In this document: piece after piece, positions 3,783 through 52,110 of the stretch | Layout of the letters: every line of letters begins with the position of its first letter | How positions within the stretch are numbered: the stretch's first letter is position 1 | Origin: Nitrosophilus kaiyonis | GTDB lineage: Bacteria; Campylobacterota; Campylobacteria; Campylobacterales; Nitratiruptoraceae | NCBI RefSeq assembly: GCF_027943725.1 | Contig: NZ_AP025696.1 | Location: 1,527,501-1,591,500 of the forward strand | Direction: 5' to 3' | DNA: 64,000 nt | Made by a program: the position numbers and the translations under genes | Notes under the pieces: generated by a model | Told to the model about the DNA's origin: nothing | The model's input: only the letters and a program-made list of their open reading frames with translations | Databases searched by the model: none

Positions 3783-3805
3783 AATCTCTCCTTTTAAATT
3801 TGACA

Positions 3806-4003
3806 TTAGACAATAGTCATTAGTCATTAGTCAATAGTCAATAGTAATTGGTTGCTTTACTTCTTATCCCATTTATTATCTTAATTCTCCAATTTCTAAC
3901 TTTCCAACTCTCTCAATTTCTCAATTAACTATTATTAAATCCTACCACTGACCAAATGACTAATGACTAAAGACTAATGACTAATGACTAATGACTAAAG
4001 ACT
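3806..4003. repeat. composite intergenic repeat, locus 1
   Basis: The gap between the CBS gene and the P-II-like gene. On the plus strand it opens with units of CATTAGT/CAATAGT (3806-3845), passes AATTGGTTGCTTTAC, continues with about 95 pyrimidine-rich bases (CTTCTTATCCC, TTTCTAACTTTCC, CTCTCTCAATTTC), and closes with inverted units (TGACTAA repeated, about 3952-4003). The two arrays are reverse complements and could pair. It ends about 10 bases from the stop of the next gene. Confidence 0.85.
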
Positions 4004-10971: not shown

Positions 10972-11087
10972 TATTAGTCATTAGTCATTAGTCATTAGTA
11001 TTATTAGTTAAAAAATTTATATCGAAAAGTTATAAAGAGGAAAGCAAAGAAGCTATAAAGCATCTAATTCCTAATGACCAATATCAA
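10972..11087. repeat. composite intergenic repeat, locus 2
   Basis: Between purC and purS. Plus strand: units of TTAGTCA three times (10972-11002), a purine-rich centre (AAAGAGGAAAGCAAAGAAGC), and inverted units CTAATTCCTAATGACCAAT near 11069-11087. This is the same convergent layout as locus 1, with the centre in the opposite orientation. It splits the pur genes without obvious promoter loss. Confidence 0.75.
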
Positions 11088-30297: not shown

Positions 30298-30362
30298 AAA
30301 ATTCCTTTGATTTTTTCTTTTGATTTTACAAAATTATTGATAAAAAGAGGGTTAAATGGAGA

Positions 30363-30534
30363 TTAGTAATTAGTAATTGGTAATTGGTAATTGGATGTTT
30401 AAAATTGAAACTTTCATTACACTGCTAATAAAACTTCGAGTTCGGAACTCGAATAATTCGAATAAATTTATTATAGTTAAATGTAAAATTATTAATACAC
30501 TAATACACCAATATACTAATTACCAATATTTATT
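30363..30534. repeat. composite intergenic repeat, locus 3
   Basis: Between gatB and the ThiE-like gene. Left: ATTAGTA twice then ATTGGTA units (30363-30393). Centre: includes a perfect hairpin TTCGAGTT, CGG, AACTCGAA (about 30436-30454). Right: inverted units (ACTAATACACCAAT, ACTAATTACCAAT, about 30499-30530), running through the stop codon of the ThiE-like gene. Confidence 0.8.
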
Positions 30535-32903: not shown

Positions 32904-33002
32904 AAGCATTAAGTACTAAGAGTTAAGATTTTTTATTATTTACTTTTTCTTTCAGCCTTAAACCTAATTCCCAATGACTAATGACTAATGACTAATGACT
33001 AT
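32904..33002. repeat. composite intergenic repeat, locus 4
   Basis: Between the TIGR02757 gene and lptB. Left: GTTAAGCATTAAGTACTAAG; centre: pyrimidine-rich with TTACTTTTTCTTTCAGCC; right: CCTAATTCCC, then TGACTAA units (about 32974-33002). It ends 3 bases from the lptB stop. Confidence 0.75.
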
Positions 33003-45027: not shown

Positions 45028-45190
45028 CATTAGTAATTAGTATATTGATATATTGGAAATTAGTATTAAGTATGAGTATGAGATTTAAGCCCTGAGCAAT
45101 GAGTACTAAGTTTTTACTATCCACTATATCCTTAAATCCTTCAACCTTAATCCAATAACTAATAACCAATACACCAATAACCAAATAACA
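45028..45190. repeat. composite intergenic repeat, locus 5
   Basis: Between the prenyl synthase and DUF2018 genes. Left: ATTAGACATTAGTAATTAGTA and related ATATTG units; centre: purine-rich then pyrimidine-rich (TATGAGTATGAG, then CTTAAATCCTTCAACC); right: CCAATAACTAATAACCAAT and ACCAATAACCAA. It occupies most of the 192-base gap. Confidence 0.75.
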
Positions 45191-45492: not shown

Positions 45493-45590
45493 AATTCGTG
45501 ATTCGTTATTCGTGATTGGAAATTAGCCACTTCACTGCTTCCCAGCTTCACAACTTATCCCCTTACTTTCTATGCTTTACTCACCTTTTC
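45493..45590. repeat. composite intergenic repeat, locus 6
   Basis: Between DUF2018 and the RND gene. Left units GATTCGTTATTCGTGATTGG; junction GAAATTAGCCACTTC (45519-45533); then pyrimidine-rich CACTGCTTCCCAGCTTC and CTTATCCCCTTACTTTC. There is no right array. Confidence 0.8.
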
Positions 45591-48728: not shown

Positions 48729-48843
48729 AGTCATTGGTAATTAGGAATTAGAAATTGGCCGCATTCCTTACCCCCTTACTCCCTTACCACCTCACCCCTT
48801 CATCCTTCAACCTACCCCACTAACCTTACTCACCTAACTCAAC
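48729..48843. repeat. composite intergenic repeat, locus 7
   Basis: Between the RND gene and the ftsL-like gene. Units TCATTGGTAATTAGGAATTA, junction GAAATTGGCCGCATTC (48751-48766), then pyrimidine-rich sequence with CCCCCTTACTCCCTTACC and CTTACTCACCTAACTCAAC to within about 5 bases of the ftsL-like stop. Confidence 0.82.
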
Positions 48844-50063: not shown

Positions 50064-50480
50064 TCCTTTCGTAATTCGTAATTCCTGATTCGTTAATAAT
50101 AACTTGGAATTTGAAATTGGCCGCTTCATCACCTTACCTCCTATGTCCCTATCCCGCTTCACTGCTTATCACCTATCTAGCTATTCCACTATGCTCTATT
50201 CCACTTTCTACCTCATTCGTCTAAATCTAACCGAAAATCTTCATTCGCTTTGCTCATTTGATTTTCTTCAAGGTAAACCAGCTGTTCGTATGCTCAGACA
50301 CGAAATTCCTTGAATTTCGGCTTCGCATATACTCTCAGCTTTCGTTTCGGGCACAGACAACAAGCAGTTGTTGTCCTAAAGCTTAGCTTTGCCCTCGCTC
50401 ACTTACCCCCTTACCACCTATTCCACTATCCTGCTATTCCACTTTCTAACTTCCTCACTCTCTCACTTTCTAACTTCCCA
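50064..50480. repeat. composite intergenic repeat, locus 8
   Basis: It fills the 405-base gap between rsmH and bioA. Left units TTCGTAATTCGTAATTCCTG, junction GAAATTGGCCGCTTC (50113-50127), pyrimidine-rich words (CTTCACTGCTTATCACC, CTATTCCACTTTCTACC), the 183-bp module (50222-50404), then more pyrimidine-rich sequence (CTTTCTAACTTCC twice) that continues into the end of bioA. Open frames here do not look coding. Confidence 0.85.
50222..50404. repeat. 183-bp hairpin module, copy A
   Basis: It differs from copy B (51865-52047) by about eight substitutions and no gaps. Three perfect hairpins: CGAAATTC-CTT-GAATTTCG (50301-50319), GACAACAA-GCAG-TTGTTGTC (50356-50375) and AAAGC-TTA-GCTTT (50378-50390). 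It lies in the same orientation as copy B, with bioA between them. Confidence 0.92.
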
Positions 50481-51776
50481 ACTCACCTTCTTTATTCCCT
50501 CATATGCCACATCCATCATCTTATCTATCTCATCAAAACTTATGACATATGGTGGCATAAAATATATTATATGTCCAAGCGGTCTTAATAAAACTTCATT
50601 TTTAAGTCCATATTGGTATATTTTTAGTCCAATCCTTTCTTGAGGTGTATAACCTTTTAATTCAACAGCAGCTATCATTCCTGTCTGTCTAATCTCTTTT
50701 ACATTTGGCAAATCTTTGAATTTTTGAAGTTTTTTATTTATATATTCTATTTTTATTCTATTTTTTTCTATGATATTTTCATTTTCAAAAATATCAAGCG
50801 TTGCATTTGCCGCACTACAAGCAAGAGGGTTTCCTGTATAGCTGTGTGAATGTAAAAATGCCTTATATGTATTATAATCACAATAAAATGCACCATAAAT
50901 CTCATCAGTTGTTAAAACAACAGATAATGGAAGATATCCACCTGTTAAACCTTTTGATAAACACATAAAATCTGGAGTAATATCAACACTATTACATGCA
51001 AACATATTCCCTGTTCTTCCAAAACCCACCGCAATTTCATCAGCAATAAAATGGATATTATATTTTTTACATAATTCATAAGAGAGCTTAATATATAAAG
51101 GATTATACATATGCATATAACCTGCACATTGTACTAAAGGCTCTAAAATAAATGCAGAAATCTCTTGATGTCTTTTTTCAAAAAGTTTTTCTAAATTGTT
51201 TGCTGCTTCAATTGCAGCAGCTTCACTCATATCTTTTGGAACATCTTCTTGTATTGTGTTTATTAATATCTCTTTATATGTACTTTTATAAAGTTCTACA
51301 TCACCAACTGATAATGCTCCAATAGTTTCTCCATGATATGAGTTTTTCAAAGATACAAAAAAGGGCTTTATTTCGCCTTTGTTTTTGTGATAATGAAAGC
51401 TCATTTTCAATGCAACTTCTATAGCACTTGAACCATTATCTGCAAAAAAACATTTATTTAATCCATCAGGAGTAATTTTTACTAATCTTTCACTCAAAGT
51501 TACAATCTGTTCATGTGTAAACCCAGCAAATATGACATGTTCAAGTTTTTCAATCTGTTCTTTTACTTTTTGATTAATATATTCATTACTATGTCCAAAA
51601 AGATTTACCCACCAACTACTTATCGCATCAATATATCTGTTTCCATCAAAATCATATAGCCATACACCTTTTGCTTTTTTTATAGGAATAAGAGGTAAAA
51701 ATTCATGATCTTTCATCTGTGTACATGGATGCCAAATATGAGACAAATCTCTTTTCATCAATTCATTGTTTGTCAT
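50463..51776 (-). CDS. bioA: adenosylmethionine-8-amino-7-oxononanoate aminotransferase
   Basis: 437 residues from the ATG at 51776, which has AAGGAG about 10 bases upstream; a frame to 51812 starts in the repeat. RDLSHIWHPCTQMKDHEFLP, ISSWWVNLFGHSN, SYHGETIGALSVGD, the PLP Lys in CLSKGLTGGYLPLS. It makes diaminopelargonate in biotin synthesis. The last residues (KKVSWEVRK) are encoded by repeat-type sequence. Direct repeats of 183 bp flank the gene. Confidence 0.95.
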   Translation of the reverse strand: MTNNELMKRDLSHIWHPCTQMKDHEFLPLIPIKKAKGVWLYDFDGNRYIDAISSWWVNLFGHSNEYINQKVKEQIEKLEHVIFAGFTHEQIVTLSERLVKITPDGLNKCFFADNGSSAIEVALKMSFHYHKNKGEIKPFFVSLKNSYHGETIGALSVGDVELYKSTYKEILINTIQEDVPKDMSEAAAIEAANNLEKLFEKRHQEISAFILEPLVQCAGYMHMYNPLYIKLSYELCKKYNIHFIADEIAVGFGRTGNMFACNSVDITPDFMCLSKGLTGGYLPLSVVLTTDEIYGAFYCDYNTYKAFLHSHSYTGNPLACSAANATLDIFENENIIEKNRIKIEYINKKLQKFKDLPNVKEIRQTGMIAAVELKGYTPQERIGLKIYQYGLKNEVLLRPLGHIIYFMPPYVISFDEIDKMMDVAYEGIKKVSWEVRK

Positions 51777-51796
51777 TACTTTTCTTCTCCTTTTTA

Positions 51797-52110
51797 ATTG
51801 GGCATTAGACATTGGGAAGTGGTCACTTCTCCCTTTATCTCCTTCAGCCTTCTACCTCCAACCTTAAATCTAACCGAAAATCTTCATTCGCTTTGCTCAT
51901 TTGATTTTCTTCAATGTAAACCAGCTGTTCGTATGCTCAGACACGAAATTCCTTGAATTTTGGCTTCGCATATACTCTAAGCTTTCGCTTCGGGCACAGA
52001 CAATAAGCAGTTGTTATCTTAAAGCTTCGCTTTGCCCTCGCTCACTTCACAGCTTCACCCTTCTCACTCACCTTACTCACCTTACTCAACTACTCAACTA
52101 AATTTAACCA
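51797..52110. repeat. composite intergenic repeat, locus 9
   Basis: Divergent gap between bioA and the PpiD-like gene. Left AATTGGGCATTAGACATTGG, junction GGAAGTGGTCACTTC (51815-51829), pyrimidine-rich stretch, the 183-bp module copy B, then CTTCACAGCTTCACCC and CTTACTCACC units (CTTACTCACCTTACTCAACT). Promoters of both genes must lie at its edges or within it. Confidence 0.85.
51865..52047. repeat. 183-bp hairpin module, copy B
   Basis: Same length and direction as copy A. The first stem becomes CGAAATTC-CTT-GAATTTTG, a change tolerated as G-U; the second, GACAATAA-GCAG-TTGTTATC, has one mismatch and one wobble; the third keeps its stem (AAAGC/GCTTT) and changes only its loop. Confidence 0.92.

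Follow-up and report, generated by a model that had tools for sequence, protein, structure and literature searches.

The gene bioA of the campylobacterial species Nitrosophilus kaiyonis lies between two near-identical direct repeats, here called copies A and B, in the 64,000-nucleotide stretch that we refer to as the window (assembly GCF_027943725.1, contig NZ_AP025696.1, positions 1,527,501 to 1,591,500), which raises the question whether these repeats serve bioA or belong to something wider. A first-pass annotation, made from the letters of the window, had described them as ungapped, differing at about eight sites, alike in orientation and flanking only bioA, and had proposed a mobile unit or a structured RNA, whose two copies, as direct repeats, could excise or amplify that gene. 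The description was exact: each copy measures 183 nt, they differ by exactly 8 substitutions (96% identity) without gaps, they stand in the same orientation at a spacing of 1643, and bioA alone lies between them. Their significance, in our reading, is a different one. Copies A and B would belong to a mobile, non-autonomous module of small size (~180 bp). The RNA of its minus strand would have a conserved multi-helix fold and would act in cis at the 3′ ends of mRNAs and at junctions within operons, an explanation that we consider probable, with real reservations.

Copies of the module and their fold

A and B are two of about 30 near-complete copies in the 1.77-Mb genome. BLAST searches returned about 28 of near-complete length, together with fragments; these copies are 75–98% identical and occupy unrelated loci on both strands. 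A covariance model (R1) gave 37 hits in this genome and 13 in each of two congeners. Two genomes from another genus within the family had 9 and 8, further genomes fewer, and some none. A second model (R2), built from a compact version of ~90 nt, matched 32 genomes out of 397 in the class, belonging to eight genera; the compact version is present in Campylobacter and other families. Previously uncatalogued, the module family has reached several families of Campylobacter relatives, both deep-sea and host-associated, and its members usually sit at a gene's stop codon or at the far end of a CRISPR array. In Rfam, no family scored above its gathering threshold or near it, which removed a known Rfam family as a candidate; tRNA or tmRNA (transfer-messenger RNA) identity was likewise dropped, as ARAGORN gave only unrelated tRNA-Trp, and the literature searched, where coverage of subscription journals is small, yielded no publication that names the element. 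The module is short (175–183 nt) and without coding capacity, having no open reading frame (ORF) and stops in most frames, in agreement with the earlier statement that it encodes no conserved peptide. A second, related module type in reverse orientation, which has the AACTGCTT hairpin in common with the first, was seen nested in or adjoining it at L008, L024, L029/L030, L036, L170 and L171.

Comparison of A with B is by itself no proof of structure. Folding of copy A beat 200 of 200 shuffles on both strands (z -2.7 and -3.4), and the eight A/B substitutions comprise three unpaired positions, four in helices and one in the putative pseudoknot. The first-pass annotation had placed the changes of copy B in loops or in G-U pairs, with one mismatch; the G-U pairs are found in the plus-strand fold, and in the minus-strand fold, to which the family as a whole points, two of them are A.C mismatches.

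The case for a fold comes instead from covariation among many copies. In a 21-copy MAFFT seed alignment (A3), 94.9% of helix cells were paired, compared with 84% after shuffling and ~40% after sliding, and 121 cells were doubly changed against 39 +/- 5 in shuffled controls. The 67-copy alignment (A6) gave 95.9% paired against ~40% slid, with 604 doubly changed cells against 193 +/- 12 shuffled and double-sided changes in 37 of 46 pairs. The compact family, an independent set of the same architecture, was 93.8% paired, with 42 doubly changed cells against 12.5 +/- 2.7. Kinship of the sequences inflates the shuffle statistics, whereas the slid control preserves kinship. The range of pair types seen would be difficult to produce in any other way. 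Besides the helices, the loop end AA-CUGC-UU of hairpin H2 is near-invariant while its stem covaries freely, and a conserved GGUNUACC stands, on the minus strand, between the apical hairpin with loop CAAGG and the 3′ hairpin. A pseudoknot, in which CAAGG would pair with CCUUG or, in one clade, CUAGG with CCUAG, is plausible. On the minus (sense) strand, G.U pairs outnumber A.C by 107:53, an excess that favours minus as the RNA strand. The covariation marks the module as a structured RNA, as the first-pass annotation had allowed, most likely one read from the minus strand, the same strand as bioA. Further copies do exist throughout the genome and their stems are kept by covariation, whereas the early proposal had named an absence of other copies, or stems destroyed at random, as grounds for abandoning it.

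Placement at gene ends and CRISPR arrays

Among local copies, the gene that lies upstream in sense is on the same strand as the module in 25 of 30 (p ~1.6e-4, binomial under one half, manually corrected). Moreover, at many independent sites the upstream gene takes its stop codon from the AAGTGA of the module. In this genome the stop is supplied by the module at L007, L024, L027, L028 (rny) and L029 (fabG). Relatives show the same at tsf, grpE and a number of further genes (gap -6), and other families at groEL, grpE, an RNase J gene and phage genes, some of these stops lying a few codons inside the module; gene names at these sites are our reading of the translated ends, not the outcome of a family search. 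Many of these sites are tight operon junctions, so selection against disruption explains part of the placement. A role in selenocysteine insertion was considered and dropped, since the stop is sometimes TAG or TAA. In the 3′ untranslated region (UTR) of the RNase J gene of one genus (L159–L166), a hairpin stands at or just past the stop in most genomes and differs between species, and only some of these hairpins bear the AACTGCTT loop.

The site between frr and pyrE carries the module directly past the frr stop in six species of two genera and is empty in others. Copies at this site are 74–85% identical in most pairs, compared with 19–45% at frr fourfold sites in distant species; in the closest pair the values are 91% and 72%. 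They group by site and not by genome in the tree, and within this site alone we counted 11 doubly changed cells against 3.6 +/- 1.7. Slow change relative to fourfold sites, combined with compensatory changes, points to purifying selection on the fold, unless the site has been re-invaded repeatedly. The module is therefore probably maintained in cis at frr-pyrE. Orthologous placement was also found in four species at tsf and in three at grpE, and copies at all three sites look maintained by selection, the rate comparison covering frr only. In one genome (G007, locus L212) the frr site retains the first hairpin only, as would fit a deletion from one repeated hairpin to the other. The draft genome G018 has two frr-pyrE loci (L210, L228), of which one holds part of a module and the other none, reflecting contamination or duplication.

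In relatives, the module also lies inside the terminal, leader-distal repeat of clustered regularly interspaced short palindromic repeat (CRISPR) arrays. Nine arrays of this repeat type occur in five module-bearing genomes, and 7 of the 9 have the module at the leader-distal end, with array polarity inferred from the 3′ end of the repeat (ATTGAGAC). One of the remaining two carries only the second, reverse-oriented type and the other has no module. The tree suggests about four lineages of CRISPR-end copies, so the seven cases do not each stand for a separate event. Related modules stand likewise at an array end in a genome of another family (G036); the genome of N. kaiyonis has no array of this repeat type. 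The position raises the question of an effect on array processing or expression.

Copies A and B at bioA

The order rsmH-bioA-ppiD is syntenic in the genomes of the family where contigs are long enough, and there the module is absent in 21 of 21 relatives. The gap between bioA and rsmH is ~409 bp here and 3–45 bp in most relatives, with one larger exception (G005). Module-free loci and short gaps in relatives indicate that A, B and their low-complexity arrays are recent. Judged by this comparison of genomes, copies A and B are evidently recent insertions and no feature of bioA, and the special tie to biotin synthesis suggested at first does not survive. That direct repeats of 183 bp, 1643 bp apart, exist there for excision or amplification of bioA is scarcely credible: copies are dispersed genome-wide, the locus is module-free elsewhere, and bioA is found in 22 of 22 genomes. 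Recombination between such repeats could in principle occur, and the natural form at frr of G007 fits an internal deletion between partial repeats.

The positions of the module, its parts and its surroundings are collected in the table. The pyrimidine-rich flanks noted at the outset are real, yet not peculiar to the module, as similar heptad and octad arrays (AATGACT, CATTAGT, TAACTTTC) also occur in the window without it, at 2613-2664, 3804-4003, 10973-11003, 30362-30394, 32973-33001, 45152-45189, 45494-45517 and 48766-48798. These arrays are a phenomenon separate from the module, and the local copies are nested in them. The C-terminal residues and stop codon of bioA (50463-50487) appear to be encoded by the octad array; matches to bioA in relatives stop at residue 439-446 of 449.

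Table. Module copies, predicted folded parts and neighbouring features in the window
Feature	Position	Strand	Remarks
Copy A	50222..50404	-	In sense 58 nt past the bioA stop, 164 nt ahead of the rsmH start; R1 212.7 bits
Copy B	51865..52047	-	Divergent bioA/ppiD region, ~52 nt upstream of where the bioA ORF is called to start; R1 199.9 bits
Copy A, 5′ end AAGTGA	50399..50404	-	TGA is the upstream gene's stop at many other sites, not at bioA
Copy A, domain 1: stem P1 around hairpins H1 and H2	50349..50394	-	H2 loop end AA-CUGC-UU, stem strongly covarying
Copy A, domain 2: helix P3/P4 (tandem G.A, UA bulge) and apical hairpin, loop CAAGG	50280..50340	-	
Copy A, putative pseudoknot: CAAGG 50308-50312 with CCUUG 50269-50273	50269..50312	-	Moderate support; one pair broken in copy B
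Copy A, 3′ hairpin P7, then conserved GGUUA	50233..50266	-	
bioA	50463..51812	-	Host gene between copies A and B, outside the module
Low-complexity array beside copy A	50104..50221	.	Minus strand purine-rich; inserted with or around copy A
Octad array, copy A to bioA	50405..50487	.	Also codes for the last bioA residues and stop
Array adjoining copy B	52048..52101	.	

Origin and possible role of the module

In the explanation that we favour, the module would be transcribed together with the upstream gene, as part of its 3′ UTR or of the stretch that separates two operon genes. The RNA would act in cis, and its likeliest effect would be to stabilise, process or insulate the end of the upstream transcript. 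Some trans-acting activity would spread it, and insertions that spare both neighbouring genes would survive. The proposal of a non-autonomous mobile unit is supported by the many genomic copies and by the empty sites in relatives. At most sites, bioA included, the module is probably a near-neutral passenger. A bolder version, tentative though possible, sees in it a mobile cis-acting RNA of a new class: the host gene would take its stop from the module's own 5′ end, every jump would add a ready-made 3′ control element to an operon or CRISPR transcript, and selection would then keep the module at translation genes such as frr and tsf.

Several observations weigh against a cis-acting role or leave it incomplete. 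Location on the sense strand and docking at stop codons could reflect selection against harmful insertions and not function. Copy B lies in the divergent region upstream of bioA and not at a 3′ end. In a sizeable fraction of copies the putative pseudoknot is disrupted, and the 67-copy alignment was fitted to the covariance model and is tilted towards it, although the MAFFT alignment agrees. At frr, the copy is present in one genome (G003) and absent from a close relative (G002), so that vertical maintenance needs a loss, or else there was horizontal gain, and re-invasion stays possible. Finally, no mobilising enzyme was found: the three domains searched for, RVT_1 (PF00078), Y1_Tnp (PF01797) and TnpB, are absent from this genome, with positive controls for RVT_1 and Y1_Tnp.

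Part of the evidence would suit a purely selfish repeat, whose fold serves mobility alone through a single-stranded DNA or RNA intermediate, with no cis function for the host gene. The tree shows a recent burst of copies in this genome, presence among genomes is patchy, nested, tandem and chimeric copies are seen, and placement at stop codons and between genes is what selection spares in tight operons. We nevertheless regard this as unlikely, because the frr module changes far more slowly than synonymous sites, shows compensatory changes and groups by site. An ordinary miniature inverted-repeat transposable element (MITE) of a DNA transposase, folding incidentally, would likewise be short and without coding capacity, and would account for the imperfect ~8-bp inverted repeat at the ends of CRISPR-site copies (GTGAGCGA / TTAGCTCAC) and for possible duplications of 5-6 bp there, such as TTTGAG. 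Gene-end copies, by inspection, have no terminal inverted repeats, nor consistent duplications; covariation concerns internal helices and loop motifs rather than terminal arms, and no matching transposase was found among the few families searched, which makes such an origin improbable.

Movement at the RNA level, with the RNA inserting into transcripts or being reverse-transcribed to DNA, would explain the sense orientation at the ends of mRNAs and CRISPR transcripts and fits the sense bias, the G.U asymmetry and the long duplication, 47 bp, that flanks the module at hsdS. Selection also explains the sense bias, however, and RVT_1 is missing from the very genome with most copies, so that we find this route highly improbable. 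At the hsdS-like gene (L094), as at L093 and L098, an incomplete repeat of the downstream gene's beginning precedes the module, and the 47 bp are the length of that duplication at L094; no duplication is evident beyond this and the CRISPR sites. Ends resembling attC (GGTTAGAT) were considered and dropped, because the opposite end has no partner box. Spread by known phages or plasmids was set aside in the same way, with no BLASTN match to the module in either collection. A strict core pattern proved too narrow, with 3 hits among genome contigs and 0 among viral ones. One viral contig (L105, 1836-1926) holds a compact module between two phage tail genes.

Small interspersed repeats are known from other bacteria. 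ERIC is one imperfect palindrome, and the BOX and RUP repeats of pneumococcus have a modular build and a folded RNA. ERIC, or intergenic repeat units, of enterobacteria are ~127 bp long, dispersed, intergenic and often at gene 3′ ends, where they affect mRNA level (PMC10969869, PMC2229807). Our module is also small, dispersed, intergenic and at gene 3′ ends; unlike ERIC as described, it is multi-domain, carries conserved unpaired motifs and perhaps a pseudoknot, and lacks consistent terminal repeats. BOX and RUP are likewise small and interspersed in intergenic DNA (PMC3049150), yet they belong to another phylum and differ in fold, and the module is set apart by a 5′ end that is a stop codon and by its place at CRISPR array ends. 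With REP/REPIN (repetitive extragenic palindromes) and their RAYT (Y1) it shares short, hairpin-bearing, dispersed repeats, but this genome has no Y1_Tnp domain and the module is a much larger multi-helix unit. The guide RNA of IS605-type TnpB and the bridge RNA of IS110 are, similarly, structured RNAs tied to mobile DNA; here no TnpB domain is found and copies have no ORF. Group II introns and retrons differ in that no reverse transcriptase (PF00078) is found in this genome. To judge from its sequence and predicted fold, the module resembles ERIC, BOX and other small interspersed repeats, with a far more elaborate, multi-domain conserved fold. It offers a testable case of a mobile repeat becoming a maintained cis-acting RNA, in several Campylobacterales families that include culturable Campylobacter species.
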